Of a stretch of 43,249 nucleotides of DNA, positions 12,020 to 40,952 are shown piece by piece. Every line of letters starts with the position of its first letter. Within the stretch, counting starts at the first letter, position 1. Location: positions 1 through 43,249 of the IMG/VR virus record IMGVR_UViG_3300010883_000089; one strand, 5' to 3'. The notes under the pieces are model-generated. The model was not told the DNA's origin. It saw nothing but the letters and a program-made list of their open reading frames with translations, and did no database searches. The stretch is from a virus. A program made the translations under genes and the position numbers.

Positions 12020-13219
12020 ATGACGATTGCACCCCTATTCCAAGTACTGGATAGTAAGAAAGATTGTGTGGGCTATTTTACCGACAACATGATTAATGGT
12101 TCGAGCGCGCCACCACTGGCTGGTGCAACCTGGGATTATTCGAGCCATCTACCCGGCGAGTCCTATGAGCTAGCGCGCCTTTTTTGTGGGGGCGCCTCTC
12201 TCACCGAAGTGTGCCCCGATGAATTGAAGGAAGAATGGGCCCAGATCAAGTCGCGACTCAAGGCGTGTCTTAGGGCCTTTAATACCGCGCATCTATCTTT
12301 AGATTATAACTGTCTCTATGACGTGATCCCGGAATATTTTCTTTTTCGGTATTTGGATACCAAGAATAAGATCACGCGTCACGTTCTCGACACCTATCCT
12401 CGCCCCCCCAACTATCAACTTATGTATAACTTGGTGGAAATGCTGTCAGTGATCGGGAGCAACGAGTTACTTCTGGATATCCGCCCCATTCAGCATTTGC
12501 TGGGATCGGTACGGGGAAAGAATTTTCTTCGCACCCTCCAAACAGTTCGGCCGGTTTGTGACTACAACGCGTGGGGGACCGTTACTGGGCGCCTGTCCAC
12601 CAACCCCAACACCTTTCCTATTCTTACCATGAGTAAAGATTTTCGAGCCTGTATTAGGCCTACGAACGACTGGTTAGTGGAGCTTGATTTTAATGCCGCA
12701 GAGCTGAGGGTACTCCTCGCACTTGCCGGTGTTGAGCAGCCCAAGAATGACATTCATAACTGGAATGTTAAGAACATTTTCGACGACAACCTGACTCGCG
12801 AAGAGGCTAAGGTGAAGACCTTCGCGTGGTTGTATTCTAGTAAGGAAAACAAGCAGTTAGAGAGTCTTTATAACAAGGATTTAGTGAGAAATAAGTACTG
12901 GGATGGCTGTAAAATTGAGACAGATTATGGTAGAATAATAGAGAACGTAGACGAGCATCATGCTCTCAACTACATCGTTCAAAGCACCACAATTGACATG
13001 GTGCATGAACAGGCTTATAAAGTCTACGAGCTTTTGAAGGGGAGAAAGAGCCACATCGCATTTCTTATTCACGACGCAGTGTATATCGACCTCGCAGCAG
13101 AAGATCGATATGAATTAGTGAATTTGCTTGACACGTTCAGGAAAACACGGTATGATATGTTCAAGGTTAACGTCTCCGCTGGAAAGAACCTCGGAGATAT
13201 GAAGGAACTAAAGTTATGA
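12020..13219 (+). CDS. Family A DNA polymerase core (no exonuclease domains)
   Basis: 399 residues. Polymerase I-type motifs are present: TGRLSTNPNTFPIL before the palm, motif A as DFNAAELR (D223, E228), motif B as REEAKVKTFAWLY (R260, K264, F268, Y272), and motif C as LIHDAVYID (H351, D352). The usual motif C Glu after the Asp is Ala here, but the catalytic Asp residues remain. There is no room for 3'-5' or 5'-3' exonuclease domains; a separate FEN-type exonuclease is encoded at 19782. The first 170 residues are not recognisable as a standard domain. It opens an operon with a predicted leaderless start, and the next gene overlaps by ATGA. A DnaE polymerase at 26793 is also present, so the division of labour is unclear. 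Confidence 0.88.
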   Translation: MTIAPLFQVLDSKKDCVGYFTDNMINGSSAPPLAGATWDYSSHLPGESYELARLFCGGASLTEVCPDELKEEWAQIKSRLKACLRAFNTAHLSLDYNCLYDVIPEYFLFRYLDTKNKITRHVLDTYPRPPNYQLMYNLVEMLSVIGSNELLLDIRPIQHLLGSVRGKNFLRTLQTVRPVCDYNAWGTVTGRLSTNPNTFPILTMSKDFRACIRPTNDWLVELDFNAAELRVLLALAGVEQPKNDIHNWNVKNIFDDNLTREEAKVKTFAWLYSSKENKQLESLYNKDLVRNKYWDGCKIETDYGRIIENVDEHHALNYIVQSTTIDMVHEQAYKVYELLKGRKSHIAFLIHDAVYIDLAAEDRYELVNLLDTFRKTRYDMFKVNVSAGKNLGDMKELKL

Positions 13220-25949: not shown

Positions 25950-26796
25950 GAAGCTGAACATGCCTGCCATTATACCCGTGGCTGGGATGTCAACCGAACT
26001 AGGGATGGAGTGGGATGCCTCCTTAGTGCCAGTGGCGCCCAACTATACAGCATTAGAGGCCACCGTCTATGAGTGTTTGCATGCCGGCTGCACTTCTATC
26101 TGGATTGTGGCGAACGACGATGTAGCCCCCCTCCTACGCTACCGGCTTGGTGAGATCGCCACGGACATAGACAGTATTCAACGGGGAACGTTTGTTAAGT
26201 TTGGACAGACCAGACACATAGAGGTTCCCATTTATTATGTTCCCATTCATCCTAAACATAGAGAGAAGGTAGACAATTATGCGTGGTCTGTTATTTATGG
26301 CGCCAATGTGGCATACTGGATACAAGCACAGTTTTCGCGATGGTCCCAGCCGGATCGGTACTACATATCTTTTCCTATGGGGATGATGGATCCCAAAGAA
26401 GTATTAGAGTACCGATCTAAACTACGTAAGGGCCCCCCTTTTTATTTCTCACACAATGGAAAAACAGTGAAGGATGGCTTGCCACTAAGCTTTGTTATCG
26501 ATCCTGAGGAGTGGCGCCGCGCCAAAAGAACTATTACGACGAACGCCTCATATTACAGAGCACCTCCGCCCGGTGAAATGCCCTCTGAAGCACTGCCCCC
26601 CGAAGAGAGATATGTGTCTTTACGCTATAATCTCGAAGATGTTTTTGGCGATGGGCCAGAGGGCACCCATCAAGAAATGAAATGTTTTTATGACTTGACA
26701 TCATGGGCTGGCTATGTTAAATTTATATCATCGGAACTTGGTAAGAAAACCAAACGTCCGAACACAAACACTATGTATAGAGGGAGAAACAAGTGA
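25942..26796 (+). CDS. Nucleotidyltransferase-like (GT-A fold) protein
   Basis: 284 residues. The start MPAIIPVAGMSTELGMEWDASLVPV, then ALEATVYECLHAGCTSIWIV, follows the beta-alpha-beta plan of sugar-nucleotide pyrophosphorylases (IPAAG..., main helix, then AGI-type strand). The usual GTRM loop is replaced, so catalytic activity is uncertain. The rest (PIYYVPIH, YYISFPMGMMDP) continues in the same style. Such enzymes make NDP-sugars; in a phage this could serve DNA or surface modification. It overlaps the previous gene and the GTG of DnaE. Alternative: a non-catalytic GT-A relative. Confidence 0.5.
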   Translation: MAKKLNMPAIIPVAGMSTELGMEWDASLVPVAPNYTALEATVYECLHAGCTSIWIVANDDVAPLLRYRLGEIATDIDSIQRGTFVKFGQTRHIEVPIYYVPIHPKHREKVDNYAWSVIYGANVAYWIQAQFSRWSQPDRYYISFPMGMMDPKEVLEYRSKLRKGPPFYFSHNGKTVKDGLPLSFVIDPEEWRRAKRTITTNASYYRAPPPGEMPSEALPPEERYVSLRYNLEDVFGDGPEGTHQEMKCFYDLTSWAGYVKFISSELGKKTKRPNTNTMYRGRNK

Positions 26797-29700
26797 ACGA
26801 GAAAAAGATTCCTTTCGTAGGCCTGCACGCACACAGCGTAGCGGGTTCTATTTTTGATGCCATCGGATATCCGGATGAGCATATGGATTTTTGCTATGAG
26901 AACGGGGGCGAAGCACTCGCTCTCACAGACCACGGGAACATGAATGGGTTTTCGCACCAGTTTTTACACTGGCAAAAGATGAAGTCCGAAGGAAAGGAAT
27001 TTAAGCCTATCTTTGGTGTAGAAGCATATTTCTTGCCTTCTATCGAAGAGTGGCGCCAGGACTATGATAGGATCAAGGAGGATAAGAAGCTCGCGAAATC
27101 ATTGGTGAAAGAGGGGGATACCTCTGGCGCCACAGTTGAGGACGAAGCAGCTTCAAAGAAAGCAATTAAGTCCGTTATTAATCGCCGGCGGCATCTCATT
27201 CTCCTGGCACAGAACCAGACTGGTCTCAACAATCTGTTCAAGCTAATATCAGCTTCATACAGAGAGGAGAACTTCTATCGCTACCCGCGTGTAGATTATA
27301 AGATGCTCGCAGAACACTCTGAAGGCGTCATCGCTGCATCGGCCTGCTTAGGCGGACCCTACGCTGGCAATTATTGGGAGAACCGCGAGGAGGGACCAGA
27401 GGCCGTGAGAGAGGCAATGAGGGAAACGACCCGTCGCTTCATGGAGGTCTTCGGTGACCGCTGGTATGGGGAACTTCAGTGGAATAACATTCTAGAACAA
27501 CATGAACTAAACCAGCACATTATTGAGGTGTGCAAGGAATTTGATGTTACATTAATTTCAACAGCGGACAGCCACTATCCTAACCGCGAAGCCTGGAAGG
27601 ACCGTGAGCTTTACAAGCGCCTAGGCTGGCTAGGCAAGGGAACCCCGGCGTGGGCGGAAGACAATACAGAACTGCCCCCTGGCGTAGAAGAGATCGGCTA
27701 CGAACTCTACCCGAAGAACGGCAACGAGATTTGGGAGTCATATAAGCAGTACTCTAAGAACCTAGGAATGGAATACGACGATGACTTGGTAATGAACTCT
27801 ATTACCGAAACACACAATATTGCATTCAATCGGATTGAGACCTTTGTCCCCGACACCAAGGTGAGGCTACCTGACTTTGTGGTTCCCGCAGGATTCACAG
27901 ATGCAGAAGCATTGGTGAACTATGCATTGGAAGGGTTACGCGATCGTGGCCTCCACGAGAACGAGGAATACACTACTCGCCTGCAGCAAGAATTAGATGT
28001 CATCGAGGACCGAGGATTTAGTAAGTACTTTCTCACCATGAAGGCAATTGCCGACAAGGCCAATGCGGTTCAGTTGACCGGCCCGGGCCGCGGCTCTGCT
28101 GCTGGTTCGCTAGCTGCGTATGTCCTGGGTATCACACAGATCGACCCCATCAAGTATGGGCTCCTCTTCGAGAGGTTCCTGCGCAAGGATGCGACAGACT
28201 ACCCTGACATCGACTATGATGTTGCGGAGCCCATGCAACTCAAGGAAATGCTTATGGAAGACTGGGGCAAGAACTCGGTCATCCCAATTTCAAACTGGAA
28301 CACGCTTCAGCTTAAGTCCTTGATCAAGGACATTTCAAAGTTCTATGGAGTTGAGTTCGGAGAAGTTAATAAAGTAACGTCGACGATGATTGCGGAGGCA
28401 ACCCCGGCTGCAAAGATGAAGCACGGGATCAAGGCCGGAGTGTACGCTCCGACCTGGGAAGAAGTTATGGAACTCTCCCCCTCCCTGCGCGGCTATCTAA
28501 TAAAGCATCCCCATATCAAGACACACGTTGAGGCGTTGGTGGGACAGGTTCGTTCCTGTTCCCGTCACGCGGGCGGCGTTTTGATTGCAGATGACTTGAA
28601 TGAGCATATGCCCATCATTAGTTCGGGCGGCGTGCGCCAGTCTCCGTGGGCGGAGGGACAGAACGTCCGGCACTTGGAGCCGCTTGGGTTTATTAAGTTT
28701 GATTTGTTGGGACTCTCGACACTTCGAATGATCGAGGGCGCAATCCGACACATCTTGAAGAGACACCATAACAACCCAGAACCTACGTTTAAGGATGTGA
28801 AAGAGTTCTATGACAAGAACCTTCATCCCGATGTCATCGACTTCGACGACGCGTCCGTGTATAGAAACATTTTTCAGCGAGCAAATTTCGCGGGAATTTT
28901 TCAGTTCACTGAACAGCGAGCACAGGAATTCTGCGCGAACGCAAAGCCGAAGTCACTGATTGATATCTCGGCCATCACATCGATCTATCGACCAGGACCA
29001 CTCTCAGCCAACGTGCACGAGCAATACATTCAAGCCAAGGCGAACGCAGGAGATATCGATTACATTAATGAGCATGTAAAGGACGTAACCAAGGAGACAT
29101 ATGGGTTCCTAATCTTTCAGGAGCAGATTGCTCTCCTTGCTCACAAGCTCGGGAAGGACATCTCTCTCGATGAGGGGAACATCCTTCGCAAGGTTCTCAC
29201 CAAGAAGGGAACAGGGAAGGAAGCCAGAGTTAAGAAGGTTCTCCGCACTAAGTTCATTGACGGGTGTGTAGAGAAGGGAATTCGCCACAGCGAAGCGGAG
29301 GATATGTGGGAGAGGTTTGAATACTTCTCGGGCTATGGCTTTAACAAGTCGCATGCCATTTCGTACTCGGCAATCTCGTTCCAATGCGCGTGGCTATATA
29401 ACTATTACCCCGTAGAATGGATGGCATCGTTCCTCGACAAGGAACCTGAGAAGCGCAAAGAGAAGGCAATCAACATCGCTAAGTCGAACGGCTTTGAGAT
29501 TGTGGAGGCAGACGTAAATACTTCATCGTTTGTGTGGGAGATCGATCCCAACAACGACAAACGTTTGGTGCAGCCACTGGCAGGGCTTAAGGGTCTAGGC
29601 GACGCTGCCATCGAACAAATTGTCGCGAACCGACCGTTCAATGATATTGAGGAGTTCCTCTTCCATGACGATATTGTGTACAGCAAGCTGAACAAGAAGG

Positions 29701-30233
29701 GGCTCGATGTGCTCGTTCGTTCGGGTGCCTTGCACAACCTGATGGACGAGCGCTTTAGTGGGCGCAAGCATTTTTGGTCTGCGGTAGCTGTGGATAGAGT
29801 TTATAGCAAGAAGAAGTTTCTGGAAAACATTGAGACCTACCGGGACGAAGGCGACTTCACTACAGAAGAAGAGATTGATAACCTTACGACGCTCACTGGC
29901 ATCTTCCCGATGCACTTAGTGATGACTGACTCCGTGCGGAACAAGCTCGACTCCTACTTCGTCCCTGCCATTTCTGATTATGACCCAGCATTGGGGCTCG
30001 TGTGGTTTATCCCTCGCGAGGTTATTAAAAAGAAAACGAAGCACGGCAAACCATATTGGATTGTTTCTGTAATAGATTCAAATTCAGTGTTGACAAAGTT
30101 CAGGTGTTGGGGTATAGTAGAAGGTAAGGATAGGATTCACTTGAACCACCCCTACATGGGACGCTTAGACTATGACGCTGCGTGGGGATTTTCAACGAGA
30201 TCGATTAGAAGAAATTTAAGAATATTGGGATGA
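26793..30233 (+). CDS. dnaE: DNA polymerase III alpha subunit (DnaE, family C)
   Basis: 1146 residues, close to the bacterial DnaE length. The PHP domain opens with HAHS (12-15) and ALTDHGN (43-49). The polymerase core has GPGRGSAAGS (430-439), the catalytic PDIDYD (D472, D474), SRHAGG near 590, FDLLGL (636-641) with the third catalytic Asp, and YGFNKSHAISYS in the fingers. A helix-hairpin-helix-like segment (LKGLGDAAIEQIV) follows; the final 100 residues could hold an OB-like domain. It would act as the main replicative polymerase. GTG start overlaps the previous stop (GTGA). Most T4-like phages use a family B enzyme, so this replacement is notable. Confidence 0.93.
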   Translation: MNEKKIPFVGLHAHSVAGSIFDAIGYPDEHMDFCYENGGEALALTDHGNMNGFSHQFLHWQKMKSEGKEFKPIFGVEAYFLPSIEEWRQDYDRIKEDKKLAKSLVKEGDTSGATVEDEAASKKAIKSVINRRRHLILLAQNQTGLNNLFKLISASYREENFYRYPRVDYKMLAEHSEGVIAASACLGGPYAGNYWENREEGPEAVREAMRETTRRFMEVFGDRWYGELQWNNILEQHELNQHIIEVCKEFDVTLISTADSHYPNREAWKDRELYKRLGWLGKGTPAWAEDNTELPPGVEEIGYELYPKNGNEIWESYKQYSKNLGMEYDDDLVMNSITETHNIAFNRIETFVPDTKVRLPDFVVPAGFTDAEALVNYALEGLRDRGLHENEEYTTRLQQELDVIEDRGFSKYFLTMKAIADKANAVQLTGPGRGSAAGSLAAYVLGITQIDPIKYGLLFERFLRKDATDYPDIDYDVAEPMQLKEMLMEDWGKNSVIPISNWNTLQLKSLIKDISKFYGVEFGEVNKVTSTMIAEATPAAKMKHGIKAGVYAPTWEEVMELSPSLRGYLIKHPHIKTHVEALVGQVRSCSRHAGGVLIADDLNEHMPIISSGGVRQSPWAEGQNVRHLEPLGFIKFDLLGLSTLRMIEGAIRHILKRHHNNPEPTFKDVKEFYDKNLHPDVIDFDDASVYRNIFQRANFAGIFQFTEQRAQEFCANAKPKSLIDISAITSIYRPGPLSANVHEQYIQAKANAGDIDYINEHVKDVTKETYGFLIFQEQIALLAHKLGKDISLDEGNILRKVLTKKGTGKEARVKKVLRTKFIDGCVEKGIRHSEAEDMWERFEYFSGYGFNKSHAISYSAISFQCAWLYNYYPVEWMASFLDKEPEKRKEKAINIAKSNGFEIVEADVNTSSFVWEIDPNNDKRLVQPLAGLKGLGDAAIEQIVANRPFNDIEEFLFHDDIVYSKLNKKGLDVLVRSGALHNLMDERFSGRKHFWSAVAVDRVYSKKKFLENIETYRDEGDFTTEEEIDNLTTLTGIFPMHLVMTDSVRNKLDSYFVPAISDYDPALGLVWFIPREVIKKKTKHGKPYWIVSVIDSNSVLTKFRCWGIVEGKDRIHLNHPYMGRLDYDAAWGFSTRSIRRNLRILG

Positions 30234-30236
30234 GCC

Positions 30237-30422
30237 ATGGCACGTAGTAAACAAGAGAAAAAAATAATTGATGATCAAATCAAAGCATATCAAAACATGA
30301 TTAAGTTTATGCGCGCCCAGATCAAGGGCCTGCGTGTACACCGAAAGGGCGGCAAGCTCGACAACCTTCAGATCGTGGTGGGGGGCCCCGATGGCCGACC
30401 GCGGATGCTAAACAAAGATTAA
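30237..30422 (+). CDS. Small basic hypothetical protein
   Basis: 61 residues, Lys/Arg-rich and helical (KIIDDQIKAYQNMIKFMRAQ), ending in a short glycine-rich segment. No family recognised. It begins 3 bases after the DnaE stop codon and is the last gene before a sigma70 promoter, so it belongs to the DnaE operon. Nucleic acid binding would fit the charge but is not shown. Confidence 0.6.
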   Translation: MARSKQEKKIIDDQIKAYQNMIKFMRAQIKGLRVHRKGGKLDNLQIVVGGPDGRPRMLNKD

Positions 30423-30436
30423 TTAAGATTACTGGG

Positions 30437-30465
30437 TTGACACCCAATTAACAATATGTTAGGAT
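30437..30465 (+). promoter_or_regulatory. Sigma70-type promoter, predicted leaderless
   Basis: TTGACA (30437-30442), 17-base spacer, TAGGAT (30460-30465), then 6 bases to ATG at 30472. TGGGT-TGAC-ACCCA (30433-30446) forms a dyad over the -35 box. It drives the DUF262/HNH/methyltransferase operon. Confidence 0.72.
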
Positions 30466-30471
30466 ATAAAT

Positions 30472-31110
30472 ATGAGTAAAACAAATAAGAATACGATTCC
30501 ATCTATCACGCTGGATAATCGTTTTGACAAAGACCCGAAACCGAAAAGCCTTAATTCCATTCGGAAGCTGTACGAGAAGACGCTTCTTGATGGTAGCTTT
30601 CAACGGTGGGGCGGTATTAGCCACGGATCCGGCTGGAGCGCGGAAGACGGAAGAGACTATCTCCGAGAGGTCCTCACCGGTGCGGTCTTCAACAAGATTA
30701 TTCTGGCCGATGTGGAGCGATGTCTCCAGTGGGCCCACGAGATTGGTGACCAGGAGTCCATCAAATATTTTGAAGAGCGACGCGAAGAAGGTCACACCTA
30801 TGTCAGTATTGATGGTAATAACACCTCCAGCATGATCTCGGCCTTCTTGGAAAACCACCCCGAACTTTATTTTAGGGACGGGAAGGGTAACAAGAAGTAC
30901 TTCAAAGATTTCAGCGACGACGAACGCGAAGACATCCGTAACGAAAAGGTCCTTGATGTAGTTTTTCTACGCCGGATCACTGTTACTGAAATGTGCAAGC
31001 TGTTTCGTAAGCTCAACAAGTCGACTCACCTGAACGATCAGGAGCGCCGGCAGGCACGCATAACACCTTTAAGTGATTTTGTGCGCCATATTGCTAACCA
31101 AGAAACCTAG
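30472..31110 (+). CDS. DUF262-type protein (GmrS/ParB-like nuclease fold)
   Basis: 212 residues. SIRKLYEKTLLDGSFQRWGG corresponds to the opening of DUF262 domains (QR-x-x-W type). YVSIDGNNTSSMISAF stands where the family has DGQQR, with Asn for Gln and no Arg. LFRKLNKSTHLNDQERRQAR matches the very typical family segment FxxLNxxxxxLxxxExRxA. DUF262 proteins include the GmrS half of the type IV restriction enzyme GmrSD, which hydrolyses NTP and cuts modified DNA. Here the next gene carries an HNH domain and the third a methyltransferase. The changed DGQQR motif leaves catalysis uncertain. Start from a leaderless-type promoter. Confidence 0.72.
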   Translation: MSKTNKNTIPSITLDNRFDKDPKPKSLNSIRKLYEKTLLDGSFQRWGGISHGSGWSAEDGRDYLREVLTGAVFNKIILADVERCLQWAHEIGDQESIKYFEERREEGHTYVSIDGNNTSSMISAFLENHPELYFRDGKGNKKYFKDFSDDEREDIRNEKVLDVVFLRRITVTEMCKLFRKLNKSTHLNDQERRQARITPLSDFVRHIANQET

Positions 31111-31120
31111 GAAAAATATA

Positions 31121-31960
31121 ATGAAAAGCAAACAGATGTTTAAGAAGTTTATTTATAGTAAACAAAGTCACCTAGATCAACGATTTCATGAGGAACTGAT
31201 AGCACAACTATGTCTAAAGTATACGAAAGAGTTTACCATAGATCTGAAAGCTGCTCAGCTCGATGAACTTTATGAGGCGCGGACAATTCTGGATAAGGAT
31301 ATCATAAAAGAGGTGCACAACGTGCTCGGCATTTTATGTAAGATGGCAGCCAACGTTCCGCAAGCGTTCATAGAGAAAAAGAAGCTCACCAAGGGTATGT
31401 TTCACGCGCTGTGCGATGTAGTTCATTTGATCTTCTCACAGGGCTACACCGTTAAGAGGCCTAAAGCACTTTTAACATGGTTCTTGGAGGTCGACGCCGA
31501 AGCACGCTCCGCGGCCGCGGATTTAACCGAGGCCGAGAAAGAGAACTCTTATATCTATTGGATTAAGTACTATTACAATAGAGTTTGTTACTCTCGCTCG
31601 CGACAGCTGTACAGTGATCAACTGGCAGTTTCATATGCGCAACTCGTTAAGGACGGAACGCTCGCCAAGAAACGCACTCATCGAGATTGTTTCTCTCGCT
31701 CGAATATTGACCTGCATTTGTGGGTTGATCAAGCTCACACCGATCGTAATTACAATGAGATTGATATTCTAGACATTTATCTGGGCAAGACACACGTGGA
31801 TCACGTGCGCTCAGTGCGGGATGGGGGCGCGACTACTTATGATAATGCGGAGCTTATGATGGCAGAAGATAACTTAACCAAGGGTGCATCTTCTAACGCT
31901 GCAGCATTCCCCCACCAGAAAGAATTTGCTTTCCCCGAGGACGCAGAAGATGACGATTAA
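31121..31960 (+). CDS. HNH nuclease protein, partner of the DUF262 gene
   Basis: 279 residues. The C-terminal domain has DH at 227-228, a glycine pair and the NAELMMAEDNLTKG ending, the pattern of HNH (His-Me finger) nucleases. The helical N-terminal 200 residues resemble the part that follows DUF262 in single-chain family members (QSHLDQRFHEELIAQL), so the two genes may be a split DUF262-HNH protein. A cut here would be made together with the DUF262 product. ATG at 31121 follows AGGA; the longer frame from 31073 overlaps the previous gene and lacks a site. The acidic tail overlaps the methyltransferase start. Confidence 0.7.
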   Translation: MKSKQMFKKFIYSKQSHLDQRFHEELIAQLCLKYTKEFTIDLKAAQLDELYEARTILDKDIIKEVHNVLGILCKMAANVPQAFIEKKKLTKGMFHALCDVVHLIFSQGYTVKRPKALLTWFLEVDAEARSAAADLTEAEKENSYIYWIKYYYNRVCYSRSRQLYSDQLAVSYAQLVKDGTLAKKRTHRDCFSRSNIDLHLWVDQAHTDRNYNEIDILDIYLGKTHVDHVRSVRDGGATTYDNAELMMAEDNLTKGASSNAAAFPHQKEFAFPEDAEDDD

Positions 31961-32999
31961 AGGATTTGCCTGGATGGATGGTATTGACTATCTTACCACA
32001 TTAAGTAGTAAGAGTGTCGACCTGGTGTTGACCGACCCTCCTTACGGGATCTCCCAATCCACCGGCATGGATAAGTGGGTGGCCCATGTGGCTGCGTGCC
32101 GTAACAGCACCACTAATTATAAAACTGAATCCTCTTGGCGCTCCCTTAAGACGGCGCCTGAGTGGAAAGAGTGGTGTCGAAAAGGTAAGTACAAGCCCGG
32201 TAAAGAAAGGCTTAGTGCCTTGCGCACAGCGAAGCGTAACTACCTGAAGTATGGCTCAATCTATGGTGCCAAGTATGCTCTCAATACCCATTATGGAAAG
32301 TGGGATACGGATTTTGATCCAACGCGGGACCTCCCGCAATTTCTTGAGCAATACTATAGGGTTCTGAAGCCCGGCGGCACATGCATTATCTTTTTTGATT
32401 TATGGCAGATTAGTCACTTACAAAAGATGATGCAGGCATGCGGCTTTAAGCAGATTAGATTTATTGAGTGGATCAAAACCAATCCACAACCCCTTAATAG
32501 CAGTCGGAACTACCTGACGAACTCCCGAGAGGTCGCCCTTCTTGGGGTAAAGGGTGCCAAGCCCACCTTCCATAGTCAATATGACAGCGGGGTGTATTAC
32601 CACCCCGTTCAGGGAGGGAAGTTTCGACTCATGCCCACTCAGAAGAATACAGAACTAATCAAAGAGTTGATAGAGAAGCACACCAACCCGGGCGACGTGG
32701 TGCTGGACACCTTCGCGGGTTCCGGGACTACTGCTATAGCTGCACACCGATCAGGCCGAGAATTTCGGGGGTGTGAGCTAGACGAGGAGATGTGGGAGAA
32801 ATCCATTACTAGAATACAAGGAGAAATACAATGGCAAAGAAATCAGACGGCAGCAAACACGAAACGCGCAAGAAAAAAACGCGCGTCGGAAATAGCAAGT
32901 TCACAAAAACTGGCCACCCAGGCCCCTGCGGCGGCAACAAAACCTATAAGAAACCCTACAGAGGACAAGGAAAATGATACTACAATACTATATGCTTAG
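31950..32999 (+). CDS. DNA methyltransferase, beta class (N6-adenine or N4-cytosine)
   Basis: 349 residues. DPPYG (29-33) is motif IV; DTFAGSG (253-259) is the S-adenosylmethionine motif I. Motif IV before motif I defines the beta class. The part between them (about 60-150) may hold the target recognition region. The last 55 residues are Lys/Ala-rich and overlap another small gene in a different frame. It would methylate specific sites, protecting phage DNA from host enzymes or from the upstream DUF262/HNH pair. ATG at 31950 overlaps the previous stop by 11 bases. The recognition site cannot be read from the sequence. Confidence 0.88.
   Translation: MTIKGFAWMDGIDYLTTLSSKSVDLVLTDPPYGISQSTGMDKWVAHVAACRNSTTNYKTESSWRSLKTAPEWKEWCRKGKYKPGKERLSALRTAKRNYLKYGSIYGAKYALNTHYGKWDTDFDPTRDLPQFLEQYYRVLKPGGTCIIFFDLWQISHLQKMMQACGFKQIRFIEWIKTNPQPLNSSRNYLTNSREVALLGVKGAKPTFHSQYDSGVYYHPVQGGKFRLMPTQKNTELIKELIEKHTNPGDVVLDTFAGSGTTAIAAHRSGREFRGCELDEEMWEKSITRIQGEIQWQRNQTAANTKRARKKRASEIASSQKLATQAPAAATKPIRNPTEDKENDTTILYA
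32831..32977 (+). CDS. Small basic protein nested in the methyltransferase 3' end
   Basis: 48 residues in a different frame from the methyltransferase tail: MAKKSDGSKHETRKKKTRVG and so on, rich in Lys, ending GQGK. AGGAG lies 7 bases before the ATG, and the stop overlaps the dUTPase ATG (ATGA). This junction style is used across the window, which argues that the frame is a real gene. The overlapping methyltransferase tail is low in complexity and may be the less constrained frame. A nucleic-acid-binding role is possible from its charge only. Confidence 0.5.
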   Translation: MAKKSDGSKHETRKKKTRVGNSKFTKTGHPGPCGGNKTYKKPYRGQGK

Positions 33000-39380: not shown

Positions 39381-40952
39381 GTGCCCAAGTGTAAATTTGA
39401 GTCTCGTTCTAAACTAAATACCAAAGTACTTAATGGAATCAATACGCTAGCGGACAACGTCGCTGCTACGCTCGGCCCCAAGGGCCGCAACGTTCTTCTT
39501 CAAGAGAAGGGGAAGGACCCTTTCATCACCAAGGACGGTGTGACCGTCGCCGCGTTCATTCACCTCGAAGACGAGTTTGAAAATGCGGCAGCCCAGGTGC
39601 TCAAACAAGCTACGCAGGAGACCAATAATGCAGCCGGCGATGGAACCACTACGGCCACCGTTTTGGCGCGCGAACTAATGGTCAAGGCCCAGCGGTACAT
39701 CACTGCGGGGGCCTCACCGGTTGAAATCAAGCGTGGGATGGACTTGGCAGTAGATGAAATTGTTAATAATCTCAAGGAGATGGCTCAGCACATTGAAACG
39801 TTAGATGATGTTGAGAATATCGCCACCATTTCTGCCAACAATGATCGTACGATTGGTAAGTTAATTGCCACAGCAGTTGATAAAGCTGGTAAAGATGGTG
39901 CCATCACAATCGAGGAGTCCAAGACAGTTGATACTAGTCTTGATATCATTGAGGGATTCCGACTCGAAGCCGGCTACGCAGCCTCCGCTTTCATAACCGA
40001 CGAACGACGCGGCGCAGCCCACTATGATTCCCCTCTTATCCTCGTTACAGATGAAAAGATCGATACTGTTGATCAGATTTTGCCTGCCTTGGAATTGGTC
40101 GCCCGCGATGCTAGGCCCCTGGTTATCGTAGCGGAGGAGATTGAAGGCCAAGCATTGGCTGCGTTGATCATGAATACGGTTCGTGGCTCAATGAAGATTG
40201 TTGCCGTCAAAGCTCCTTTCTATGGAGAACGACGTCGTAATATTTTATCGGATCTAGCCATCTCCACCGGTGCCGAGTTTATATCTCGGGAGTCATCCAC
40301 GCGCCTCCGCGATCTCAAGCTGGCTCATTTTGGTCAGGCACGATCTGTCGACATCACTAAAATAACTACGACTGTCATCGGGGGTAAAGGCGACAATGCC
40401 GATATAGACAGACGCATCGAGACTCTTAAAGCAGAATTAAAAAATACGGAAGAGCTGCTAGAATGTGACAAAGTTCAAGAAAGGATTACTAAGTTAGCCT
40501 CAGGTGTTGCCGTGGTTAAGGTAGGTGCTGCCACCGAGGTGGAAATGATTGAGAAGAAACATCGTATTGAGGATGCTCTTGAAGCAGTAAAGTCTGCCCA
40601 GCAGGAAGGTATCCTTCCCGGAGGGGGCATTGCACTGCTACGCGCTAGCGACGGGATCAGCGCGCCAGTAGAGAACGAGGACCAACAGTTTGGGGTGGAT
40701 ATCGTCGTAGCCGCATGCGCAGCCCCCCTACGTCAGATGGCGAAGAACTGCGGTCTTTCTGAAGACTTGATCGAAGCTGAAATTCGAAAGTCCCCCAAAA
40801 ATTACGGACACAATTTTCGAGACTTTTGTGTGGTAGATATGTATGAGGCCGGAATTATTGATCCTTTGAAGGTAACGCGCACGGCTCTGCAAAATGCTGC
40901 ATCGGCCGCCGGCACTTTAATTACGACTTCGCATGCCATTATCGAAATATAG
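39381..40952 (+). CDS. groEL: GroEL chaperonin (60-kDa, phage-encoded)
   Basis: 523 residues. ATP-binding residues D52 (KDGVTVA) and D87 (GDGTTTATVLA) stand at the same numbers as in E. coli GroEL. The ATPase Asp of the VEDAL segment is kept (RIEDALEAVK). The C-terminal GGM tail is missing; the protein ends TSHAIIEI. Apical-domain hydrophobic residues are present but divergent. It should form a folding chamber, with the GroES-like protein at 24593 as possible lid. Phage GroELs are uncommon outside some large phages. It has its own promoter with perfect boxes. GTG start. Confidence 0.93.
   Translation: MPKCKFESRSKLNTKVLNGINTLADNVAATLGPKGRNVLLQEKGKDPFITKDGVTVAAFIHLEDEFENAAAQVLKQATQETNNAAGDGTTTATVLARELMVKAQRYITAGASPVEIKRGMDLAVDEIVNNLKEMAQHIETLDDVENIATISANNDRTIGKLIATAVDKAGKDGAITIEESKTVDTSLDIIEGFRLEAGYAASAFITDERRGAAHYDSPLILVTDEKIDTVDQILPALELVARDARPLVIVAEEIEGQALAALIMNTVRGSMKIVAVKAPFYGERRRNILSDLAISTGAEFISRESSTRLRDLKLAHFGQARSVDITKITTTVIGGKGDNADIDRRIETLKAELKNTEELLECDKVQERITKLASGVAVVKVGAATEVEMIEKKHRIEDALEAVKSAQQEGILPGGGIALLRASDGISAPVENEDQQFGVDIVVAACAAPLRQMAKNCGLSEDLIEAEIRKSPKNYGHNFRDFCVVDMYEAGIIDPLKVTRTALQNAASAAGTLITTSHAIIEI

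Follow-up and report, generated by a model that had tools for sequence, protein, structure and literature searches.

Positions 30437-32999 of the virus record IMGVR_UViG_3300010883_000089 (43,249 bases, analyzed over its whole length and called the window below) carry three genes, A, B and C, that represent one state of a modular phage cassette, in which the methyltransferase gene C is the stable part. We propose, with roughly even credence, that this trio is a phage-borne restriction-modification (R-M)-like cassette in which C would write a self mark and A-B would cut DNA without that mark. The source phage is probably marine, judging from its relatives. PHROGs matches in the window comprise tail tape measure, head protease, SSB, PolA-like and GroEL-like genes, and the trio is flanked by DnaE, dUTPase and IMP dehydrogenase-like genes. 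The window encodes two polymerases, a DnaE-type polymerase III alpha (26793-30233) and a PolA-type polymerase domain (12020-13219), the former being ~30% identical to DnaE of Bacillus phages, as well as a phage-encoded GroEL-like chaperonin (39381-40952; phrog_5725, E 6.5e-141). The features of the cassette are as follows.

30437-30465 (from 30434 including the dyad), + strand: cassette promoter TTGACA-17 nt-TAGGAT, 10/12 matches, with the dyad GGGTTGACACCC over the -35 box
30472-31110, + strand: gene A, 212 aa, DUF262/GmrS-fold (ParB/Srx superfamily) domain with motifs FQR, SIDGNNTSS and LFRKLN
31109-31112, + strand: AGGA, ribosome-binding-like site of gene B, 8 nt before its ATG and overlapping the stop codon of A
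31121-31960, + strand: gene B, 279 aa, ATG start, helical domain and C-terminal HNH nuclease domain (VDH-GG-N-N type)
31950-32999, + strand: gene C, 349 aa, ATG start, beta-class N6/N4 DNA methyltransferase (DPPY, FAGSGTT)

The three adjacent or overlapping genes described in an earlier note on this DNA are borne out as consecutive plus-strand ORFs, with 10 nt between the end of A and the ATG of B and an overlap of 11 nt between B and C. Distant homologues of A and B were found in more than 12 phage lineages, and dN/dS values of ~0.1-0.46 in four pairs indicate purifying selection; A and B are therefore real genes. Many of their relatives are present in IMG/VR, and none were detected among named phage isolates (50,697 phage records) or, in one scan, in GTDB genomes. 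A 61-aa ORF (30237-30422, + strand) occupies the interval between DnaE and gene A. The counterpart intervals of the related phages L018 and L021 are similar at the DNA level, and a family search with this ORF gave no hit.

A and B are fused into a single protein of ~470-490 aa in most relatives. The two-gene form was observed in the window, L016 and L017, and the split is probably genuine, since these three phages share one split point with differing spacings (gap, gap and overlap, respectively) and have ribosome-like sites of their own, including those of L016 and L017. A sequencing error is, on the same grounds, an unlikely cause of the split. The window junction contains ~6-8 extra residues, and a programmed frameshift at this point is possible. 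RNA structure at the promoter and at the A/B junction was no better than in shuffled sequences. The suggested parallel with a GmrS/GmrD pair divided over two genes proved weak: the 'split' of the founding GmrSD was reportedly an annotation or sequencing error, the CT596 system being described as one polypeptide (PMC4619093), and most relatives of A-B are likewise fused.

The reading of A and B as a DUF262 and HNH pair held for the motifs and the predicted fold, but not at the level of the expected Pfam profile: GmrSD_N (PF03235) did not match gene A, was absent across the window even at E<=10 and gave zero hits in fused A-B relatives. What supports the label 'DUF262' for A is its motifs (FQR, IDG, FxxxN) together with the fold predicted for a fused relative. 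The structure model represents one such fused relative rather than the window proteins and was built with 19 aligned sequences (pLDDT 88.5, pTM 0.75). Foldseek matched this model to viral GmrSD_N proteins (best E 2.8e-10, probability 1.00) and, over its whole length but weakly, to BrxU 7p9m (rank 7, E 0.019, probability 0.69), and its C-terminal part fits the HNH domain of Cas9 8f43 with an rmsd of 1.4 over 67 columns. Gene B itself matched the PF01844 HNH profile with an E of 4e-4 and a score of 20.9, just below the curated cut-off of 21.4. Across 16 A-B sequences, the HNH residues H, N and N are invariant and DH is present in 15, with PQ absent and NRxKG found instead of the DUF1524 pattern. 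The DUF1524 HNH motifs (E/D)HxxPQ, LxNLxLL and NxxFxxKK were not found as a set in A-B. Together, these motifs and the model suggest that the HNH domain of A-B is Cas9/EndoVII-like rather than of the DUF1524 type.

With respect to GmrS motifs, FQR and FxxxN are kept in all 16 sequences. The (I/V)DGQQR motif is near 100% conserved in the GmrSD family (PMC4619093); in A-B, its D and G are kept in 16/16 sequences and QQR is retained in 0/16, the counterpart being DGNN(T/S) in 15 of them (NNT in the window) and DGHNT in L017. As the second Q and the R of DGQQR are required for nucleotide hydrolysis by BrxU (PMC8565348), and the box II arginine of ParB folds is required to bind nucleotide (PMC12704722), the nucleotide step in A is predicted to be altered. 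If the absent arginine matters as it does in BrxU, A would not hydrolyze NTP by the GmrSD mechanism. This DUF262-HNH branch, with its natural change in a catalytic motif, is useful for asking what role DUF262 plays without NTP hydrolysis.

These observations bear on the filing of the pair as a GmrSD type IV system, under which A-B would be a modification-dependent nuclease directed against modified rival-phage DNA or host methylation, and C would be unrelated and protective. Such a nuclease would fit the structural similarity to BrxU and to viral GmrSD N-terminal proteins, and these phages may meet rivals carrying modified DNA. On the other hand, the Q and R of DGQQR that BrxU requires for hydrolysis (PMC8565348) are replaced here, the HNH domain lacks the DUF1524 PQ and fits the Cas9 type, and a type IV enzyme would not be expected to be tightly linked to a methyltransferase in several contexts. 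A cutter of modified DNA beside a methyltransferase would also be self-defeating unless it read another mark. The filing as GmrSD type IV is unsupported, and A-B is not a canonical GmrSD. Given these altered motifs and the methyltransferase linked to A-B, we favor the type IV explanation less and consider it distinctly unlikely. A-B resembles GmrSD and BrxU in having a DUF262-fold domain and a C-terminal HNH domain, fused or in two genes, with the QR and FxxxN motifs, and differs from them in the absence of a Pfam match, the DGNN(T/S) or DGHNT motif, the Cas9/EndoVII-type HNH without PQ, the linkage to a methyltransferase and its carriage by phages.

The presence of a methyltransferase beside the nuclease-like pair was confirmed. 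Gene C matched PF01555 with an E of 1.3e-34 (120.5 bits against a cut-off of 26.7), and D29PPY32 is followed by F255AGSGTT, that is, motif IV lies before motif I; these features identify C as a beta-class DNA methyltransferase. In the PDB, C matched 5hek (E 2.4e-26), listed there as adenine-specific DNA methyltransferase DpnA, which we take to be M1.HpyAVI. Based on DPPY and this nearest solved relative, N6-adenine is a likelier target base than cytosine. We collected 80 loci related to C. Its core is conserved to ~32838 and its C-terminal tail is not conserved. A 48-aa ORF (32831-32977, + strand) with an AAGGAG ribosome site overprints this tail in another frame and shows 55-77% identity in L018, L019, L020, L022, L024 and L040. 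In beta-class methyltransferases, the target recognition part is located between motif IV and motif I, and block 166-232 of C, which lies between these motifs, is the most conserved one (0.86 across 46 sequences that differ in their partners). A single shared mark predicts high conservation of this candidate target-recognition part, with which the block agrees, and the C family may have one common specificity.

A-B was found beside C in ~8 lineages and in at least four genomic contexts, in both gene orders. These contexts are the DnaE-dUTPase interval, the g13757-SSB interval (L014, order reversed), the exonuclease-DnaB interval (L049 and L078) and a 190-kb phage (L037). The recurrence of the linked pair and methyltransferase supports the R-M-like architecture put forward in the earlier note, and it agrees with type II R-M systems in that a methyltransferase and a predicted nuclease are encoded together, in adjacent or overlapping genes. 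A PF01555 and/or PF05869 methyltransferase is present in all 13 A-B records examined and adjoins A-B in most of them, and every A-B record checked encodes a methyltransferase of the adenine type. In one related group of ~6 lineages, the neighbor of A-B is Dam (PF05869); this adjacency may be synteny and is weak evidence, because Dam lies in the same place in phages without A-B. PF01555 is absent in the 68-kb record of L017, in which a Dam gene is present away from A-B. As to whether the trio recurs as such in other phages, the outcome is mixed: the genes also occur apart, yet the A-B records checked always contain a methyltransferase, and where A-B is missing, C is usually accompanied by a substitute.

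The identities of A-B and C correlate (r 0.64, p 0.01; eight lineages, near-copies included). However, given the near-copies in this correlation and the comparison of L089 with L107 (A-B 94%, C 69%), a fixed enzyme pair is unsupported, and in some pairs A-B exchanges independently of C. Nor does co-variation establish the PvuII-like enzyme and C as a cognate pair, their distances being only weakly correlated across 31 loci (r 0.21) and uncorrelated in the subset with DnaE.

Proximity to C could also arise if A-B were a selfish homing-type or host-takeover nuclease inserted at a gene-exchange hot spot in replication modules. HNH nucleases are common among homing enzymes, and genes are clearly prone to exchange in the DnaE-dUTPase interval; yet A-B and C adjoin in at least four different places and in both orders, and we know of no homing nuclease with a DUF262/ParB-fold partner. 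We consider this origin highly improbable.

A profile scan of the C loci showed that the neighbors of C are A-B, a PvuII-like endonuclease, ParB-fold proteins, a helicase-like protein, or combinations of them, with at least one such neighbor at 64 of the 75 assessable loci. On the C tree, a quick tree with several long branches, the partner label changes 24 times and the presence of A-B at least six times. Among phages whose DnaE is 88-93% identical to that of the window, the same promoter is followed by split A-B and C, by fused A-B and C, or by PvuII-like, ParB-like and C genes. Comparison of the window with L018 indicates a clean allele exchange: C is 97% identical and A-B ~32%, DNA identity is ~80% on both sides of the exchanged part, and the non-aligning segment begins at the start codon of A and stops ~50 nt short of the end of B. 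The converse was observed between L089 and L106/L107, where A-B is 94%, C ~69-70% and the PvuII-like protein 38% identical.

The PvuII-like family has D53 and E63-x-K65 invariant over 17 sequences and matches PvuII 3ksk (E 1.6e-4) around the active site. The ParB-like proteins of the cassette match the folds of Noc, KorB and Spo0J (probability 0.9-1.0), and a gene of this superfamily often lies between the PvuII-like gene and C. For the C-terminal half of the ParB-like proteins, similarity to some restriction enzymes did not go beyond E 0.15-0.6 and was left unused. No sequence-profile link was found between A-B and these ParB-like proteins, their link being the predicted fold. No remnants of PvuII-like or ParB-like genes were detected in the window. 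A 570-640-aa helicase-looking protein, read as such from its sequence alone ('QVGKTGAM', 'DEAHYG'), takes the place of the ParB-like gene next to C in L034 (1946-3865), L038 (4058-5977) and L086 (4271-5974); it has no Pfam hits above cut-off.

The pattern of promoter plus dyad has one occurrence in the window and zero chance matches in shuffled sequences. The same promoter is kept ahead of the cassette site in five related phages, where the first gene behind it is fused A-B (L018) or the PvuII-like gene (L021, L022, L023 and L024), and phages near the window share the promoter GGGTTGACACCC-...-TATTAT in the DnaE-dUTPase interval. The cassette had been credited with its own leaderless promoter carrying a dyad; the promoter and the dyad are upheld, while a leaderless transcript of A, whose ATG is 6 nt past the -10 box, is plausible. 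Read-through transcripts could use the AGGA within the -10 box as a ribosome site. A broader reading of the region, which we hold only tentatively and as rather improbable, is a polymorphic phage restriction locus: C would write one mark throughout the group, the swapped partners (NTPase-altered DUF262-HNH, PvuII-like and ParB-fold proteins) would all stand behind one regulated promoter, and the DUF262/ParB subunit would read the mark without a sequence-specific nuclease.

Under the marking-plus-cutting proposal, C would methylate a motif on phage DNA, most likely at N6-adenine, as the self mark. A and B would form a two-subunit nuclease, with A as the DUF262/ParB-fold sensor and regulator and B providing the HNH active site, and would cut unmarked DNA, be it that of the host chromosome, of competing phages or of both; degradation of host DNA would supply the nucleotide metabolism genes that the phage itself encodes. 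The attacking part would be swapped among A-B, the PvuII-like endonuclease and ParB-fold proteins while C stays, perhaps driven by inhibitors evolved in hosts or rivals. The main rival, which we judge rather unlikely, assigns A-B an accessory role as a sensor or regulator occupying the ParB slot, for instance as a clamp of ParB/Srx fold that licenses or times the action of a nuclease or methyltransferase; the true restriction enzyme of the window would have been lost, leaving C as a solitary anti-restriction methyltransferase. Elsewhere the slot holds ParB-fold proteins (Noc/KorB/Spo0J fold) with no known nuclease domain, so its occupation need not mean cleavage. The PvuII-like enzyme is absent from the window, and fusions between ParB folds and N6_N4 methyltransferases are frequent in phages (PMC12704722). 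In several phages (L004, L037, L089/L092 and L105-L107), A-B and the PvuII-like enzyme stand together, and A-B may on account of this coexistence be accessory rather than a restriction enzyme. An accessory role is harder to reconcile with the HNH site intact in 16/16 A-B sequences under purifying selection, and with the window, L014, L018, L047 and L048, in which A-B is the only cassette partner found.

SspE is a bacterial phosphorothioate-sensing protein in which DUF262 is followed by a nuclease at the C-terminus and which is coupled to a modification system; it shares this arrangement with the trio and differs in its phosphorothioate mark and bacterial carrier. The PvuII type II R-M system (R.PvuII and the beta-class M.PvuII) has a counterpart in relatives where a PvuII-like D...ExK enzyme adjoins the same beta-class methyltransferase, but the window has no PvuII-like gene, and relatives often have an extra ParB-superfamily gene in between. 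Phage fusions of ParB folds with N6_N4 methyltransferases similarly couple a ParB/Srx domain to the same methyltransferase family (PMC12704722), and the ParB part of the ParB-methylase Bce_0392 was reported to nick DNA (PMC5512222). Unlike these fusions, the cassette has separate genes, a DUF262-type fold and an HNH domain, and is interchangeable with ParB-type proteins. Chloroviruses also encode a methyltransferase with an adjacent endonuclease (PMC7019647). Degradation of host DNA is the presumed role of their endonucleases, which in a co-infection test were found not to be responsible for mutual exclusion (PMC7019647); these are eukaryotic algal viruses with classical type II enzymes and no DUF262/ParB component. 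Like the chloroviruses, jumbo phages offer a precedent for marking plus cutting, as their modification systems are predicted to act against the DNA of the host or of superinfecting phages (PMC7824862). Virus-encoded R-M, phage ParB-methyltransferase fusions and GmrSD are already known. As far as the literature searched shows, the DUF262-HNH branch with a changed motif in two-gene and fused phage forms is new, as is A-B as one exchangeable partner of a conserved phage methyltransferase.

Methyltransferases of phages are generally classed as stand-alone anti-restriction enzymes. In a marine survey, nearly all type II methyltransferases were reported without a nuclease partner (PMC9516812). Most members of the C methyltransferase family have a likely unrecognized partner, which makes it testable whether phages mark and cut to kill host DNA or rivals. 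In the isolated cyanophages P-SSM2 (L097, 4992-5498) and P-TIM68 (L098, 4941-5486), members of the PvuII-like family are annotated as hypothetical, and that of P-TIM68 lies between the PF01555-type methylase gp049 and the methyltransferase gp051.
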